DNA from: a virus
Reading direction: 5' to 3' (one strand)
DNA: 27,353 nt
IMG/VR virus record: IMGVR_UViG_3300021090_000090
Location: 1-27,353 of that record
Shown one piece after another: positions 3,729-27,353 of the stretch (positions are counted from its first letter, which is position 1; each line of letters begins with the position of its first letter). Both the position numbers and the translations under genes were made by a program. The notes beneath the pieces were generated by a model. It searched no databases. It was not told the DNA's origin and worked only from the letters and a program-made list of their open reading frames with translations.

Positions 3729-4607
3729 ATGAAAATAGCCTTCATGGTGGCGACGCGGGGCAATCCGCGCCGCGCGCTGGCGGTCATCGAATGCGCCAAG
3801 GCGCTCGCATCCGGGCGGCACACCATCGAATTCAGTGTCGGTATCGATGGCGACGACGTCCAGTCTAATTACTTCTTCCGCCGCAACATGCCGGCACTGC
3901 CGCTATCCATCGGCAACCGGCCGCCCGGCGTCGGCGCGGTGTGGAACCGCCTGGTGGCGGCCGCGCCTGGCGCGGACGTCTACTGCCCGTTCCCCGACGA
4001 TTGCTTCATCGGCACGCCGGACTGGGACGAGACGATCGCGATGGTGCTCGAGCATGGCTTTCCCGACCGCCGGCTCGGCGTCATCGCCTGGAACGATCTC
4101 GCCAATCCCGGCCAGTGCACGCTGCCGATCGTCACGCGCGAATGGCTCGAGCTCACCGGCCCGCTGTACGACGAGCGCTTTCCGTTCTGGTTCTATGACA
4201 CTTGCGTCGACGAGCTGGTGTCCTTCATCGCCGGGAGGCCTGCGCCGGTGATTCCGACGCTGGTGTTGGCGGCCAAGAAGGGTTTGACGCAACGCATGCG
4301 CGAGCTGGATTTCTGGTGGGATCTCTACGTCGCCACCCGCTACGACCGGCTGCACCTCGCGTCGCGGATCCGCCGTGAGCTCGGCATCGAGCTGCCGCCG
4401 GGCCATCTGGTCCGCGTGCTGATGGGCTGGCGGGCCCGCGACATCGAAGGCCGCCGCGCGCTGCCTGACGTCGAGGCGGCGCTCGCGGCGCATCGCGACC
4501 AGAGGCCCAGCGCCGAATACATCACGGCGCGGGCCGCGGCCGAGGCCTACATGGCGACCGCGCGGTTCCAGCCGCTCGAGGCGGCGGTGGCGGAGCTGGT
4601 GGCGTGA
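3729..4607 (+). CDS. Glycosyltransferase-like protein (GT-A type)
   Basis: This encodes 292 residues, with GGAGGT at 3717-3722 preceding ATG 3729. The N-terminus is the beta strand and loop of a nucleotide-sugar-binding GT-A fold: KIAFMVATRGNPRRA, then FSVGIDGDD, then PGVGAVWNRLVAAAPGADVYCPFPDDCFIGTPDWDE. The PDD (about residues 94-96) is a likely counterpart of the DxD metal site. The C-terminal third is helical and arginine-rich. It would transfer a sugar from an activated donor to an unknown acceptor. It overlaps the second glycosyltransferase gene by GTGA, so the two are probably made together. Lying inside the virion module, it may glycosylate virion proteins, but host surface glycans are equally possible. 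Confidence 0.68.
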   Translation: MKIAFMVATRGNPRRALAVIECAKALASGRHTIEFSVGIDGDDVQSNYFFRRNMPALPLSIGNRPPGVGAVWNRLVAAAPGADVYCPFPDDCFIGTPDWDETIAMVLEHGFPDRRLGVIAWNDLANPGQCTLPIVTREWLELTGPLYDERFPFWFYDTCVDELVSFIAGRPAPVIPTLVLAAKKGLTQRMRELDFWWDLYVATRYDRLHLASRIRRELGIELPPGHLVRVLMGWRARDIEGRRALPDVEAALAAHRDQRPSAEYITARAAAEAYMATARFQPLEAAVAELVA

Positions 4608-20676: not shown

Positions 20677-21018
20677 ATGCGAGCTTTTGTCGCCGCGCTC
20701 TTGCTTTGCCTGCTGCAGGCCTGCGGCACGACCATGCCGGCATTGGCGCAGCAAGATACCCATCCAAACTGCGCTGGGTGGATCGACTTCAGTTGCTGCT
20801 GCACCAACAATTGCTGCTTCGAGGTCCAGCCCGGAACGGTCGAGCAGATCGACGAGGATCACTGGCGCATCGTGGCGTCGGGCCAGGTGCTCAAGCGCAC
20901 CGGCTGGTCGAAGGACGGCCGCTTCATGCGCTGCGCCTGCGACAGCATCGACGGCAAGTGGACGGTGCACCCGGCGGCGTTTACGCGCTGCATCTTTCCG
21001 CCGATGCCGAATAGCTGA
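20677..21018 (+). CDS. Cys-rich secreted protein or lipoprotein
   Basis: This encodes 113 residues, with AGGAGAGG at 20665-20672 fixing ATG 20677. The N-terminus MRAFVAALLLCLLQACGTTMPALAQQ is a signal peptide. It could be cut at the lipobox-like LQA|C (Cys16; the Gln is unusual) or after ALA (residue 24). The mature part has nine further cysteines (32, 40-42, 46, 47, 86, 88 and 105), with the CCC..CC and C-x-C blocks conspicuous. It ends in CIFPPMP. The pattern W-x-x-x-x-CC-x-x-x-C..., 'SxDGxFxRC' and C-x-F-P-P resembles a family of small secreted proteins in Rhizobiales of unknown role. It sits at the head of the lysis cassette, so an outer-membrane spanin, a superinfection-exclusion lipoprotein or a host-derived cargo gene are all possible. 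Confidence 0.7.
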   Translation: MRAFVAALLLCLLQACGTTMPALAQQDTHPNCAGWIDFSCCCTNNCCFEVQPGTVEQIDEDHWRIVASGQVLKRTGWSKDGRFMRCACDSIDGKWTVHPAAFTRCIFPPMPNS

Positions 21019-21027
21019 GGGGGCGCA

Positions 21028-21978
21028 ATGACCATCCAGCTCACCAGGGAAGGCTTGCGCAACATATTCCCGAACGCGCCACGGGACATCATTGAGGAGC
21101 GCGTTCCCGACTGGCAGCGCGCGCTCGATCGCGCCGGCGTGACGCACACGCGCACCAGGCTTTCGTATTTCTTCGCCAACATCGAGCATGAGTGCGGCGG
21201 GTTCACCATCAAAAACCTGACCGAAAACACCAACTATTCGGTCAAGCGCGCGGCAGAGATTTTCCCGACCCGCGCCGGCCGCACGGCGGCCGAAGTCGCC
21301 GCCAACTTTGGCGACCCGATCGACCGGCGCCCGTTCTTCAACCTGATGTACGGCACCAGGATGGGGAATCGCCCCGGCACCGACGACGGCTGGAATTACA
21401 TCGGCCGCGGCGGCCCGCAATGGACCGGCCGCGATGGCTATGCCGAGCTTGAGCGCCGCACCGGCGTGCCGGCGATCGATCACCCTGAGATGGCGGCGGC
21501 CCACCACAACCAGCCCGAGGTCTGCGTTGCCTTTTGGGACTGGAAGCAACTCAACGCCAAGGCCGACGTCGGCGATTTCAAGGGCGTGGTGAAGCTGTGG
21601 AACGGCGGCACCAATGGCATGGCCGACCGCCTGGCGCAGCTCGAGGGCAACGATCCGATCATTGCGCGACTCGAGATCGTCGATCGCGTTCTGCCCGAGG
21701 CAAAGAAACTGCCCGGCAATCCGCCGACCAAGTTGCCGCCGAAGGACGTCATCGACGCCACCACCGTCAACGAGCGCAAGACGCGCAAAGGCGGTGCCGC
21801 CGGCGCCGCGATCGGCGGCGGCAACGAAGGCGCCAAGCAAACCGGCTCGGTACAGCCGGACAAGATGCCGCCGGCCGAGCTCGGCTACGGATTGATCGCC
21901 GCCGGCGTCGTCGTCTTCATCGTCGCCAGCTTCCTGATCTGGCGCAAGAAGCGCGCCGTCATCGCGAATTGGTTCTGA
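21028..21978 (+). CDS. GH19-type endolysin with C-terminal membrane anchor
   Basis: This encodes 316 residues. GAGGGGG right after the previous stop serves ATG 21028. Residues about 1-220 are a chitinase-like GH19 domain: SYFFANIEHECGGFTIKNLTENTNYSVKRAAEIFP has candidate catalytic Glu55 and Glu66. RPFFNLMYGTRMGN, DDGWNYIGRGGPQWTGRDGY and VVKLWNGGTNGMADR follow as in phage GH19 endolysins. Such enzymes cut the glycan strands of peptidoglycan. Residues 225-280 form a Pro/Lys/Gly-rich linker. Residues 285-305 are a clear membrane helix followed by RKKR (306-309). No N-terminal signal or SAR segment is seen. The C-terminal anchor is uncommon and is discussed as a finding. It is encoded upstream of the holin genes. 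Confidence 0.85.
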   Translation: MTIQLTREGLRNIFPNAPRDIIEERVPDWQRALDRAGVTHTRTRLSYFFANIEHECGGFTIKNLTENTNYSVKRAAEIFPTRAGRTAAEVAANFGDPIDRRPFFNLMYGTRMGNRPGTDDGWNYIGRGGPQWTGRDGYAELERRTGVPAIDHPEMAAAHHNQPEVCVAFWDWKQLNAKADVGDFKGVVKLWNGGTNGMADRLAQLEGNDPIIARLEIVDRVLPEAKKLPGNPPTKLPPKDVIDATTVNERKTRKGGAAGAAIGGGNEGAKQTGSVQPDKMPPAELGYGLIAAGVVVFIVASFLIWRKKRAVIANWF

Positions 21979-21980
21979 CC

Positions 21981-22460
21981 ATGTGGCGATACTGGCTCGA
22001 CTTCATCCTGATGCCCGCGATCGCGGTGCTGGTCATCATCGCCGATTGCCGCTCGGCTGGCTGGCTACTGTGGTGCCTCGCTGGCGTCGTGCTCTGGACA
22101 TTGGTGGAGTATTGGACGCACCGAACGCTGCTGCACGTCTACTTCTGGCACGGAACGCACGAGCGGCATCATCAGCACCCGGCTGAGTACGTGATGGCAA
22201 TCTGGTGGTACACGCCGCTGTTGTTTACCGCTCTGCTGGTGATTGCCGGCGCGACTGACACGCTGGCGATCTTCTGCGGCTTCACGCTCGGCTACGTCTG
22301 GTTCCTGACGACGCACCATTGGCTGCATCACGTCGACCTGCGCGAGCGGACGTGGCTGCATCGCTACGCTATTTGGCACAACCGCCACCACAACCAAACC
22401 GACTGCAACTATGGCATTACGACCCCCGTCTGGGATTGGGCATTCGGAACGTCGCGCTGA
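21981..22460 (+). CDS. Fatty acid hydroxylase / sterol desaturase family protein
   Basis: This encodes 159 residues, starting 2 nt after the endolysin stop. Four histidine clusters of the membrane di-iron hydroxylase superfamily are all present: H47-x4-H52, H60-x2-HH (63-64), H113-x2-HH (116-117) and H133-x2-HH (136-137). The C-terminal VWDWAFGT is the usual 'W-D-x-x-F-G-T' ending. Hydrophobic segments at about 8-42 and 75-108 place it in the inner membrane with the metal site facing the cytoplasm. Members use O2 to hydroxylate or desaturate lipids, sterols or carotenoids; the size is close to carotenoid hydroxylases and small fatty acid hydroxylases. The substrate cannot be read from sequence. 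It overlaps the phospholipase-like gene by ATGA, so the two are co-translated. No break or lost ligand is visible. Confidence 0.85.
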   Translation: MWRYWLDFILMPAIAVLVIIADCRSAGWLLWCLAGVVLWTLVEYWTHRTLLHVYFWHGTHERHHQHPAEYVMAIWWYTPLLFTALLVIAGATDTLAIFCGFTLGYVWFLTTHHWLHHVDLRERTWLHRYAIWHNRHHNQTDCNYGITTPVWDWAFGTSR

Positions 22461-22780
22461 TGACCGAGCCCGATCGCCCTTTCACCACCGACGGCTGCTC
22501 GGGCGGTATGAGTTGGTTCTGGCGCACGTTCCTCCGTCACCCGCCGCCATGGGAAGGCGCGTGCATCGAACACGATAGAGCCTATTGGGCTGGCGGCTGT
22601 TCGTTGCAGCGCTTCAAGGCCGACGCCGAGCTGGGCACCGCCGTTCACGCCAAGGGCTACCCGATCATGGCTGTGCTGATGTTCGTCGCCGTCCGCGTCG
22701 GGGGACACCCGCTGCTGCCGCTGTCTTGGCGGTGGGGCTACGGCTGGAAATATTCGCGCCGCTACAAAAAGTCCTCATAG
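22460..22780 (+). CDS. Phospholipase A2-like small protein
   Basis: This encodes 106 residues, with ATG 22460 overlapping the hydroxylase stop. The sequence has DGCSGG (residues 11-16), then after a short Trp/Pro-rich loop C35-x-x-H38-D39-x-x-Y42, then a helix with a later Asp (D55). In PLA2-type enzymes a calcium-loop segment, here DGCS, is followed by a helix with the catalytic His-Asp pair in C-x-x-H-D-x-x-Y, and prokaryotic members share DGCS with C-x-x-H-D-x-x-Y. A hydrophobic helix at about 67-83 and a basic C-terminus (WKYSRRYKKSS) would place it at a membrane. It has no signal peptide, so it would reach the inner membrane from the cytoplasm. Release of fatty acids and lysophospholipid during lysis is the inferred role. 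A catalytically inactive relative is possible. Confidence 0.55.
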   Translation: MTEPDRPFTTDGCSGGMSWFWRTFLRHPPPWEGACIEHDRAYWAGGCSLQRFKADAELGTAVHAKGYPIMAVLMFVAVRVGGHPLLPLSWRWGYGWKYSRRYKKSS

Positions 22781-22790
22781 GAGAATCACG

Positions 22791-23033
22791 ATGCTGAAGA
22801 AGATATGGCAACAGGTCAAAACGTCCGCGACGATGGCGTGGATGTGGTTCTGCGGCGTGGTCAGCTCGACCTTTATGGTCGTGATGCAGGCCCTTGAGCT
22901 GCTAGAATTGCCCGAGGTCAAGAAGCAGATCATCGACTTCCTCAATCTCAACAACCCGAAATGGGTGGGGCTCTATCTGCTCGTCGCGGCGATCGGCGGC
23001 GGCCTGGCGCGGCTGCGAACGCTGGGGAAATAA
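22791..23033 (+). CDS. Small membrane protein, holin-like
   Basis: This encodes 80 residues, with AGGAG at 22779-22783 and 7-nt spacing. The N-terminus is basic (MLKKIWQQVK). Membrane segments are likely at about 14-36 (MAWMWFCGVVSSTFMVVMQALEL) and 58-74 (WVGLYLLVAAIGGGLAR), joined by an acidic amphipathic part (LPEVKKQIIDFLNLNNP). Two membrane helices, small size and place in the cassette fit a holin or pinholin-type protein. No family is recognised, and a separate 3TM holin lies downstream. Confidence 0.6.
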   Translation: MLKKIWQQVKTSATMAWMWFCGVVSSTFMVVMQALELLELPEVKKQIIDFLNLNNPKWVGLYLLVAAIGGGLARLRTLGK

Positions 23034-23235: not shown

Positions 23236-23646
23236 ATGGAATGGCTGGTCAAAGCCGTCATCGGCGGAGTGCTGTCGCCGCTGACCAACCTCGCGCTGAC
23301 GTGGCAGAAGCAGAAGCTCGAAGCCGCCGGCAGCCACGAAGCCCGCGCCGTCGAGATCACACAGAAAGTTGTGGCGCTGGAGCAGCGCGAAGCCGAGCTC
23401 AACTCCAAGATCTTGATCGCCGAGCAGGGCAACTGGATGACGCGCTGGGTGCGTCCGGTGTGGGCAATGCCATTCATTGCCTTCACCTGGAAGGTCGTGG
23501 TGTACGACAAGATGCTGGGCTGGGGCGCGACCGATCCGCTCGACCCGAAAATGTTTAGCGTGTTCATGCTGATGGCCGGCGCGTACTACGGCGGCCGGTC
23601 GGCGGAGAAGGTGGCGACAACCATCGCCGCCTCGTTCAAGCGCTGA
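23236..23646 (+). CDS. 3TM-family phage holin
   Basis: This encodes 136 residues from ATG 23236. An N-terminal weakly hydrophobic stretch (WLVKAVIGGVLSPLTNLAL) is followed by a coiled coil (about 24-64). Then comes NWMTRWVRPVWAMPFIAFTWKVVVYDKMLG (66-95), TDPLDP, and FSVFMLMAGAYYGGRSAEKVA (108-127). The 'N-W-x-T-R-x-x-R-P' start and the 'G-x-Y-x-G-G-R-S-x-E-K' end are hallmarks of the holin family first described with gene transfer agents and common in alphaproteobacterial phages. It should form the inner-membrane lesion that triggers lysis. It is unusual that it lies downstream of the endolysin and the lipid genes. Confidence 0.85.
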   Translation: MEWLVKAVIGGVLSPLTNLALTWQKQKLEAAGSHEARAVEITQKVVALEQREAELNSKILIAEQGNWMTRWVRPVWAMPFIAFTWKVVVYDKMLGWGATDPLDPKMFSVFMLMAGAYYGGRSAEKVATTIAASFKR

Positions 23647-23993: not shown

Positions 23994-24329
23994 TCAGTTC
24001 GCCGCGAGCTTGTCGCGCAGCGCGAATCCCATCAGCGGCCAGAGCTGGCGGATGCAGTCTTCGTAGGCGAGCTTGCGGCCGAGCTCGGCATTGAAGTTTT
24101 CCGGCGACGCCGGTGCGCTCTTGCCGATGATAGTGAAGCCGTTCTTCAGCACCAGGATGCAGAGCGAGAGCACCTTCAGCGGGCCGTTCTTCGCATCCGC
24201 TTGACCGTGCACGGCTTGATCGCCGGTAAGATCGTAGCGTTGCTGGATCGCCGCCTCGATGTCGGCGAGAGCGACTCGCGGGGCTACGGCTACGGCGGCC
24301 GCGGCCGCGTCGGATGCTTCCAAGCTCAT
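23994..24329 (-). CDS. Phage gp49-like protein
   Basis: This encodes 111 residues. The frame is open to 24380, but ATG 24329 overlaps the upstream gene's stop (ATGA) and has GGGAG about 8 nt ahead, so I start there. RVALADIEAAIQQRYDL is followed by LKVLSLCILVLKNGFTIIGKSAPASPENFNAELGRKLAYEDCIRQLWPLMGFALRDKLA. The 'L-K-N-G-F-T-x-x-G-x-S', 'E-x-G-x-K-x-A-Y' and 'L-W-x-L-x-G-x-x-L' pattern identifies the gp49-like family seen in many phages and prophages. Its function is unknown. It is the last gene of the - strand accessory operon. Its first residues, MSLEASDAAA, are the same as those of the Tad2 gene upstream. Confidence 0.82.
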   Translation of the reverse strand: MSLEASDAAAAAVAVAPRVALADIEAAIQQRYDLTGDQAVHGQADAKNGPLKVLSLCILVLKNGFTIIGKSAPASPENFNAELGRKLAYEDCIRQLWPLMGFALRDKLAAN

Positions 24330-24568
24330 GTGGCGAGCTCCCAGTCGGTGGCAAGAAGGTCGGTCTGTGAGCACAACCACGGCACCAGGTCACCCTGCGC
24401 GGTCGACATGAAGACGTAGGGCAGGCTCATTTTAGAGTGTGCGTCCGGCACCTGCTTGCCGAGCCACATGCCTTTGCCGTTCCAACCGGCGCGACGGACG
24501 CGATCGCCGTTGTGCAGCTGCTTCACAGCCCAGCCGATACACTGCGGCGCGGCCGCGTCGGATGCTTC
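24300..24568 (-). repeat. Exact 21-nt repeat at the 5' ends of two adjacent genes
   Basis: The same 21 bases occur at 24300-24320 and 24548-24568. Each copy encodes EASDAAA as codons 4-10 of the gp49-like and Tad2-like genes and contains the palindrome GCGGCCGC. Codons 2-3 (AGC TTG, AGC CTC) encode the same residues with two differing bases. The start codons differ (ATG against GTG). Confidence 0.8.
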
Positions 24569-24577
24569 GAGGCTCAC
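24326..24577 (-). CDS. tad2: DUF2829 protein, Thoeris anti-defence 2 (Tad2)-like
   Basis: This encodes 83 residues and starts at GTG 24577, which overlaps the upstream stop (GTGA). After a 13-residue extension the family core is complete: IGWAVKQLHNGDRVRRAGWNGKGMWL (14-39), LPYVFMSTAQGDLVPWLCSQTDLLATDW (52-79). The R-x-G-W-N-G-K-x-M, P-Y-x-x-M and V-P-W-L-x-S-Q-T-D-L-L-A-x-D-W blocks are the DUF2829 signature. Characterised Tad2 proteins are small cytoplasmic oligomers that bind and hide the cyclic-ADP-ribose-type signal made by the Thoeris ThsB TIR protein, stopping ThsA activation. Whether this member binds the same ligand is inferred from family membership. The neighbouring small genes may be other counter-defence or early genes. 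Confidence 0.9.
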   Translation of the reverse strand: MSLEASDAAAPQCIGWAVKQLHNGDRVRRAGWNGKGMWLGKQVPDAHSKMSLPYVFMSTAQGDLVPWLCSQTDLLATDWELAT

Positions 24578-24804
24578 GTCGGCAACCTCTCAATGTTTAC
24601 GCGGGTTCGACAGAGCGCGAGCGCATGAACAGCCCTCTCGCCGACCTTCGTGATGATGTTCCAGCCTTCGGATCGCTGGACCCAACCATTTTCCACGAAA
24701 CTGTCTCGCGCCTGTTTGGAGACGAGATCGCCATCGCGCACCGGCGAGCCTGCAATTTGCAGCAGGGTGTCGATCGGTCCTTCGTTGACGTAGAACAACC
24801 TCAC
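24574..24804 (-). CDS. Small protein, possibly winged-helix, in the Tad2 operon
   Basis: This encodes 76 residues from GTG 24804, which overlaps the preceding stop (GTGA). The frame is open to 24987, but that extension is a low-quality shadow of the neighbouring gene. VRLFYVNEGPIDTLLQIAGSPVRDGDLVSKQARDSFVENGWVQRSEGWNIITKVGERAVHAL has the helix-helix-hairpin rhythm of a winged helix: SKQARDSFVENG, then VQRSEGWNIITKVGE. A DNA-binding or protein-interaction role is possible, but I do not recognise the family. Confidence 0.6.
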   Translation of the reverse strand: MRLFYVNEGPIDTLLQIAGSPVRDGDLVSKQARDSFVENGWVQRSEGWNIITKVGERAVHALALCRTRVNIERLPT

Positions 24805-26338: not shown

Positions 26339-26559
26339 TTCCCGGCCTCCGGTTTGGGGTTGTGGAGCGACATGGTCGCGCCGCAGCACCTCGGCCAGCC
26401 GTGCTGCAGGCATTTCGCGGCGTCGACGGTGCGGAAGGTTTTGCACTTCGGGCAGAACACACGGCCGCCGAGCAGGGACGGGTGCGAAGCTGCGATCTCG
26501 TCGTAGAGCTGCTGGCGATTGGCCGCCGTGCGGAACGGAAAGGCATAGACTTCCGTCAT
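26335..26559 (-). CDS. Small Cys-rich, probably zinc-binding protein
   Basis: This encodes 74 residues, with ATG 26559 overlapping the stop of the DUF6745 gene (ATGA). The N-terminus MTEVYAFPFRTAANRQQLYDEIAASHPSLLGG is followed by CPKC (36-39), C50, and HGWPRCCGATM with C58 and C59. The two cysteine pairs would form a zinc ribbon. The H-G-W-P-x-C-C-G-x-T-M ending is one I associate with small phage and prophage proteins of Rhizobiales. The function is unknown; protein or nucleic-acid binding is plausible. Confidence 0.65.
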   Translation of the reverse strand: MTEVYAFPFRTAANRQQLYDEIAASHPSLLGGRVFCPKCKTFRTVDAAKCLQHGWPRCCGATMSLHNPKPEAGK

Positions 26560-27353
26560 GTCCGAACGGCCTCCCGATAGTGTTTCGGCGCGATGCCGTA
26601 GCTGTGCGCCACGGCCTCGTGCGGCGTGCGGGGCGGCTTGCGCGTGCGCGGGTCGCGCGCAGCGCCAAGGTGAAACCGCCGGCGAGTGCCGTCGGGCTCG
26701 AGGCTGCCGTTGTGGACCTCGGTCACCTGCAGCTTCTCGCCGCCGACGTTGATTTCGAGAAGCCGCCGCGGCTGGCCGTGAAGCTCGTCGGCGGCGATCA
26801 CCTTGGCCTTGCGCTGCGCCAGATAGTTCTCGAAGCCGAACACTTCGAGCATCACCCGGCGAAGCTCGGCGTTCGGTTCCGCTTCGATCGCGTCCGGCGT
26901 CAATTTGCCGCTCTGTTCGATAACCCATTCGTGCGACCGCGGAATGTGTAGCCCGTGCCAGAAGTACAAACTCCAGCCGTCGCGATAAGCAATCGCGGGA
27001 CCGCTGTCTGAATGCAGTCTTCCGCCGGCGTCGCGCTTAAGCACGCGCGGACGGTCGGACACCATCGCAAAGTCGGAATGAAGTGAGAACGGGCCGCCGC
27101 GGCTGTGCATTGTTTCGAGCATCGCAAGTTCATCTAGCGCCGCGATCTCAAGCTGACAGACCTGAACGAAGAACGTTCGCCATGCAGTCCATCCGCACCA
27201 CAGATTGCCGCCCCATTCGATATAGAGGGCCTGTTGGGCACAGCGCAGCAGAAAATAAACCGCGCCGCGAACCGCGCCGCGAACCGCGCCGTCAACCGCG
27301 CCGCCAACCGCGTCGCGAACCGCGCCGCCAACCGCGCCACGAACCGCGCCCCC
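26556..27353 (-). CDS. DUF6745 protein, 5' end beyond the window
   Basis: The frame is open from the window edge (27353) to TGA 26556, giving 265 visible C-terminal residues; no upstream start is seen, so the gene continues outside. Residues 1-32 are eight tetrapeptides ending in AV. Next comes YFLLRCAQQALYIEWGGNLWCGWTAWRTFFVQV, then from residue 78 MLETMHSRGG, SDRPRVLKRDAGGRLHSDSGPAIAYRDGWSLYFWHGLHIP, ENYLAQRKAKVIAADELHGQPRRLLEI and a C-terminal PHEAVAHSYGIAPKHYREAVRT. The 'DRP-x-x-L-x-R-D-x-x-G-R-L-H...G-P-A-x-x-Y-x-D-G-W-x-x-Y-x-W-H-G' block and the 'AVA-x-x-x-G' ending are the DUF6745 pattern. Function is unknown. It is the upstream gene of an overlapping operon with a zinc-ribbon protein and a membrane peptide. 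Confidence 0.8.
   Translation of the reverse strand, partial: GGAVRGAVGGAVRDAVGGAVDGAVRGAVRGAVYFLLRCAQQALYIEWGGNLWCGWTAWRTFFVQVCQLEIAALDELAMLETMHSRGGPFSLHSDFAMVSDRPRVLKRDAGGRLHSDSGPAIAYRDGWSLYFWHGLHIPRSHEWVIEQSGKLTPDAIEAEPNAELRRVMLEVFGFENYLAQRKAKVIAADELHGQPRRLLEINVGGEKLQVTEVHNGSLEPDGTRRRFHLGAARDPRTRKPPRTPHEAVAHSYGIAPKHYREAVRT
27258..27353 (-). repeat. Eight tandem 12-nt repeats inside the DUF6745 gene
   Basis: There are exactly eight 12-base units, consensus on the - strand CGCGGCGCGGTT, with changes only at a few positions. They read in frame as GGAV RGAV GGAV RDAV GGAV DGAV RGAV RGAV from the window edge inward. The window ends at a unit boundary, so the array may be longer. Confidence 0.95.

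Follow-up and report, generated by a model that had tools for sequence, protein, structure and literature searches.

A putative membrane lipid hydroxylase gene adjoins endolysin genes in a group of uncultured phages

Why would a phage carry an apparent membrane fatty acid hydroxylase gene among its lysis genes, when the lysis genes known from phages make pores, cut peptidoglycan or fuse membranes? The question is raised by a stretch of 27,353 bp, an entire virus record, which is called the window here. Because T7-like virion genes (head-tail adaptor, major head, tail, internal virion and virion structural proteins) occupy the same record, the hydroxylase is a phage gene; their presence on the same contig also ruled out host contamination of the record. 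The enzyme family is known; its setting in phage lysis cassettes is apparently unreported, as no paper describing a fatty acid hydroxylase among the lysis genes of a phage turned up in the literature searched. The cassette runs in the following order:

20677..21018, plus strand: Cys-rich putative lipoprotein, encoded directly before the endolysin
21028..21978, plus strand: GH19-like endolysin (phrog_181, E 2.1e-46) with a C-terminal transmembrane helix by hydropathy (residues 286-304)
21981-22460, plus strand: hydroxylase ORF of the membrane fatty-acid-hydroxylase superfamily, 159 aa, with a predicted FA2H/Scs7 fold and ten-His di-metal site
22460..22780, plus strand: PLA2-like small protein by its motifs, 106 aa (DGCSGG...CIEHDRAYWAGG), in the unknown PHROG phrog_6098
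22791..23033, plus strand: small hydrophobic protein
23236..23646, plus strand: holin-like protein (phrog_3427, E 2.9e-8)

A first reading from sequence alone had placed the hydroxylase in a lysis cassette, and its upstream neighbour is indeed a GH19-like endolysin by the phrog_181 match; Pfam GH19 fell below threshold for this protein in the Pfam scan. The hydroxylase starts 2 nt behind the endolysin and shares a TGATG with the PLA2-like gene (stop TGA 22458-22460, start ATG 22460-22462). The translational coupling to the next gene that had been proposed is real, but it is of the TGATG type and not ATGA. In L010, another of the viral loci described below, a similar Cys-rich putative lipoprotein gene is found two genes before the hydroxylase.

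Several other features of the record and its genes were also noted. The window endolysin has one transmembrane helix at its C-terminal end, a tail anchor, and the endolysins of L022, L037, L038 and L155 (the last of which adjoins a PLA2-like gene) combine another catalytic part with the same kind of anchor; for the first three, the similarity to the window endolysin seems to come from the tail region. A DUF6745 protein on the minus strand (26556-27353) runs into a tandem repeat with a 12-nt unit (AACCGCGCCGCG, about eight copies), which continues to the contig end. Two 32-nt direct repeats, 91% alike and 248 nt apart (24300-24331 and 24548-24579), cover the starts of two minus-strand genes whose products both begin (M/V)SLEASDAAA, and a gene among the virion genes (3729-4607) has a weak glycosyltransferase-like PHROG match.

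The assignment of the ORF at 21981-22460 to the fatty acid hydroxylase family was borne out by a match of PF04116 (FA_hydroxylase) to residues 33-157 (E 1.5e-14), which scored 54.9 bits against a cut-off of 31 bits. A chance ORF was ruled out by this match, the codon pattern and conservation. PHROGs held no family for the protein and NCBIfam no equivalog. An AlphaFold model built on 25 relatives had a mean pLDDT of 91.9, and the only significant Foldseek matches to it were the hydroxylase-domain chains of yeast Scs7 (TM 0.80). VIA-align superposed 157 of the 159 residues on Scs7 at 2.4 Å with a Z of 16.6, the first unrelated row standing at 3.8, and a profile of the 25-relative alignment searched against solved structures retrieved Scs7 at E 3e-20 with no other significant match. 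The model contains four hydrophobic helices (2-22, 26-54, 77-91 and 95-117), and the charge pattern is compatible with a predicted N-in/C-in topology. In both sequence and model the protein begins at the first helix, with no cytochrome b5 domain at the N-terminus. The motifs, of which the first four are invariant in relatives and aligned to Scs7, are as follows:

22098..22142, plus strand: EYxxHRxxxH motif with E43, H47 and H52 (residues 40-54)
22155..22181, plus strand: THERHHQHP motif with H60, H63 and H64 (residues 59-67)
22311..22331, plus strand: HHWLHH region with H112 and H116 (residues 111-117)
22374..22391, plus strand: WHNRHH motif with H133, H136 and H137 (residues 132-137)
22407..22451, plus strand: terminal motif NYGITTPVWDWAFGT (residues 143-157), from the translation and the viral-contig alignment

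The C-terminal end of the ORF is ITTPVWDWAFGTSR (WDWAFGTSR in the translation). As had been claimed, the histidine clusters and the terminal WDWAFGT are intact: none of the ten histidines (H47, H52, H60, H63, H64, H112, H116, H133, H136 and H137) varies in an alignment of 25 viral-contig proteins, a set that includes L023, later shown to be host DNA, or in plasmid-borne bacterial relatives. Pairs of close phage copies gave dN/dS values of 0.14-0.25, which indicates purifying selection. Since the ten histidines are invariant and dN/dS is in this range, the hydroxylase is probably a working enzyme.

How widely do phages carry this gene? A tblastn search of 50,697 deposited phages returned no match for the hydroxylase, and three of this phage's relatives, at 58-69% in a single virion protein, lack the gene. 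With a profile, 32 loci were retrieved from IMG/VR, to which later scans added a few. About 30 distinct phage loci were left after removal of duplicates, one truncated copy and the viral contig L023, which was rejected as a phage locus and left out of the counts, its neighbours matching Pseudomonas genomes. The nearest relatives in IMG/VR are L011, L010 and L178 (59%, 47% and 46% identity, respectively). A scan of bacterial and archaeal genomes detected 370 relatives, the best 80 of which are mostly from Hyphomicrobiales. At the loci inspected, the bacterial relatives are stand-alone genes with no common context, the exception being a Bradyrhizobium sp. C9 contig (L120) that has the gene order of viral contig L019 and is consistent with a prophage. 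A bacterial homologue on pKLC102 (L006:2842-4860) carries a cyclopropane-fatty-acid synthase domain (PF02353) in fusion with the hydroxylase. The window, L011 and L010 group in one supported clade of a 67-protein tree, in which the phage/bacteria label needs 3 changes compared with 20.4 when labels are shuffled; given this separation, lineages of the hydroxylase that belong to phages appear to have persisted over a long time.

The link to lysis was assessed by gene calling around each locus together with PHROG and Pfam scans of the neighbours. An endolysin immediately adjoins the hydroxylase in 11 of the ~30 distinct phage loci (the window, L011, L012, L016, L017, L021, L022, L029, L035, L037 and L038) and lies two to five genes away in L014, L018 and L025, giving 14 of ~30 with an endolysin within five genes. 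The endolysins of L022, L037 and L038, which had no profile match, were assigned by homology, from 32% identity to the L011 enzyme, 28% to that of L035, and a tail in common with the window endolysin. About five unrelated endolysin types are represented: GH19-like, CHAP, GH25-like, M15 peptidase, and an unnamed N-terminal domain, either alone or joined to a peptidoglycan-binding domain. The endolysin is upstream in 10 of the 11 adjacent loci, and in eight of them the stop-to-start spacing is -4 to +5 nt. For loci with an endolysin in the flank, 10 of 14 were adjacent versus 2.7 expected (P ~2e-5, relatedness uncorrected), a script count that excludes the window, where the gene distance is one. 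If one gene slot in every twenty is taken to adjoin an endolysin, 10 adjacent among 23 corresponds to P 6e-8, again uncorrected for relatedness and weakened somewhat by six later loci that have no adjacent endolysin. About half of the phage homologues (L010, L024, L027, L028, L033, L036, L178 and others) are found away from lysis genes, near DNA polymerase or terminase genes (replication, packaging) or genes of unknown function. Because adjacency is above chance, yet other copies occupy other modules, the association of hydroxylase and endolysin is real but not universal. Random occurrence with no conservation of the cassette had been named at the outset as the outcome that would count against a lysis-linked enzyme; the adjacency seen here, with its variety of endolysins and one fusion to a PLA2-like domain (described below), is far above chance, although about half of the loci lie outside such cassettes. 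The interpretation given in the first reading is supported in part: the family, the intact active site and the place among lysis genes hold, whereas hopanoids as a target, help in lysis and a superinfection block are conjectures. For L011 and L032, an alpha/beta-hydrolase reading of genes adjoining the hydroxylase was dropped, as neither Pfam nor PHROG supported it.

The gene downstream of the hydroxylase, at 22460-22780, had been described as PLA2-like, and it does have the DGCS...CxEHDxAY motif, but no Pfam phospholipase match (PF09056, PLA2_3, had none at E<=10). A PDB profile search for a PLA2 identity returned nothing significant, the fold search gave no match with a structure model of low confidence, and there was no match among deposited phages. 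DGCS and CxEHDxAY-like elements are conserved in 14 sequences of the family, and we take them to resemble the calcium-loop and His-Asp motifs of phospholipase A2. With no Pfam, profile or fold match and only the unknown phrog_6098 to place it, the PLA2 label is a motif-level guess. The family comprises 21 IMG/VR loci. As read from the sequences, its gene is directly 3´ of an endolysin-like gene in L154, L155 and L157, and is separated from one by a single small gene in L146. Three of the 21 records also carry the hydroxylase, the same three that the reverse search returned. In L035, hydroxylase and PLA2-like domains are in one ORF of 289 aa directly behind the endolysin, and this natural fusion of two neighbours argues for a shared pathway of the two proteins. 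The family is also worth recording in its own right: ~105 aa with the pattern FTTDGCSGGM...CxEHDxAYWxGG...GGxPLLPxPWRWGYG, widespread in phages, often directly behind endolysins, and with no Pfam or solved-structure relatives. On a 607-kb contig classed as viral (IMGVR_UViG_3300046665_000548; L020 and L150), the hydroxylase and PLA2-like genes are ~148 kb apart.

Our best reading of the gene is a late-expressed phage lipid acyl-chain hydroxylase that has been repeatedly recruited to lysis cassettes, and hydroxylation of host lipids by the phage enzyme is our best inference as to what it does. The four hydrophobic helices would arrange the ten histidines on the cytosolic side of the host's inner membrane, where they would hold two metal ions, whose identity we infer. 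This di-metal centre would activate O2 with electrons that would come from the host, since the hydroxylase has no cytochrome b5 domain, and an acyl chain of a membrane lipid would be hydroxylated, most likely at C2 as in Scs7, judging from the family. That the substrate would be an acyl chain is supported by the pKLC102 homologue, whose fusion partner is an enzyme of membrane acyl chains. Translational coupling to the endolysin would lead to late synthesis. Since it needs O2 and reductant, the hydroxylase must act ahead of lysis and cannot be the lytic effector when lysis occurs, and membrane remodelling would precede holin triggering, probably in cooperation with the adjacent putative lipid hydrolase. 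Such late remodelling could ease membrane breakage or tune holin triggering and make lysis more complete or better timed. To the full proposal, a minimal FA2H/Scs7-type di-metal enzyme of the inner membrane that is synthesized late alongside the endolysin and alters the membrane ahead of holin triggering, probably with the putative lipid hydrolase, we give about even credence. Its extension to some phages of environmental proteobacteria (soil and other), in which an oxidative acyl-chain hydroxylase with or without a paired or fused small putative lipid hydrolase would pre-condition the inner membrane for lysis, is put forward tentatively and seems to us rather unlikely.

The same observations can be read differently. 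The protein could be a genuine lipid hydroxylase whose gene is a late-expressed passenger (a moron or auxiliary gene), one that serves superinfection exclusion, lysogenic conversion or stress tolerance by changing the host envelope; the place behind the endolysin would then be just a permissive late insertion site. The lack of conservation in relatives of this phage, the half of the homologues in other modules and the prophage-like Bradyrhizobium contig all fit such a passenger, as does the finding that hydroxylated ornithine lipids add to stress resistance in related hosts (PMC3972451). However, it is specifically the endolysin gene that the hydroxylase adjoins, at near-zero spacing and across unrelated endolysins, the neighbouring PLA2-like domain has once been fused to the hydroxylase, and neither the repeated use of one slot nor the overlap would be favoured by an insertion hot spot alone. 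We consider the passenger explanation possible, at somewhat less than an even chance. A second alternative concerns the substrate, which could be an isoprenoid lipid (hopanoid, carotenoid or quinone) or the head group of an ornithine lipid, given that the PF04116 superfamily includes CrtZ- and OlsE-type enzymes. In Agrobacterium, OlsE adds a hydroxyl group to the ornithine moiety (PMC3972451), and the Hyphomicrobiales that predominate among the best 80 of the 370 relatives are in keeping with this. Against a substrate of this kind, the structure searches led to no solved relative other than the acyl hydroxylase Scs7, the fusion partner of one bacterial relative is an enzyme that modifies acyl chains, and the neighbouring domain, if PLA2-like, also suggests phospholipids; we regard it as improbable. 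A decayed or structural passenger devoid of catalysis can be set aside almost entirely, given ten invariant histidines, an intact terminal motif and purifying selection.

If the acyl-chain hydroxylase reading is true, a conserved lipid hydroxylase that depends on O2 and is coupled to the endolysin would add chemical editing of membrane lipids to the lysis repertoire, and host membrane lipid chemistry may belong to how some phages end infection. A set of uncultured phages and one likely prophage are now identified in which the lipid-editing idea can be tested, and the phage protein offers biochemistry a small FA2H-like family member that is prokaryotic and free of the b5 domain.

Among known systems, the closest is Scs7/FA2H (PF04116; PDB 4zr0, 4zr1), which the phage protein resembles in whole-protein fold, four helices, ten metal-binding histidines and the terminal WDxxFGT. 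It differs in having no N-terminal cytochrome b5 domain, in its much smaller size, in an identity of ~25% and in being a phage late gene. Plant FA2H likewise has no cytochrome b5 domain, and functional FA2H-like enzymes occur in some myxobacteria (PMC10002949). Bacterial genes annotated as 'sterol desaturase family protein' (Rhizobium, Mesorhizobium and others) share 30-36% identity, the motifs and the length class, but are stand-alone chromosomal or plasmid genes that separate from the phage clades in the tree. The fatty acid hydroxylases of giant viruses, weak structural matches from the same superfamily in BFVD with no phage member among them, belong to eukaryotic viruses and have no lysis cassette. 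The accessory lysis genes of phages (spanins, holins and antiholins) are comparable in position and in presumed late co-expression with the endolysin, whereas the phage hydroxylase would be an oxidative lipid-modifying enzyme rather than a pore, fusion or hydrolase protein.
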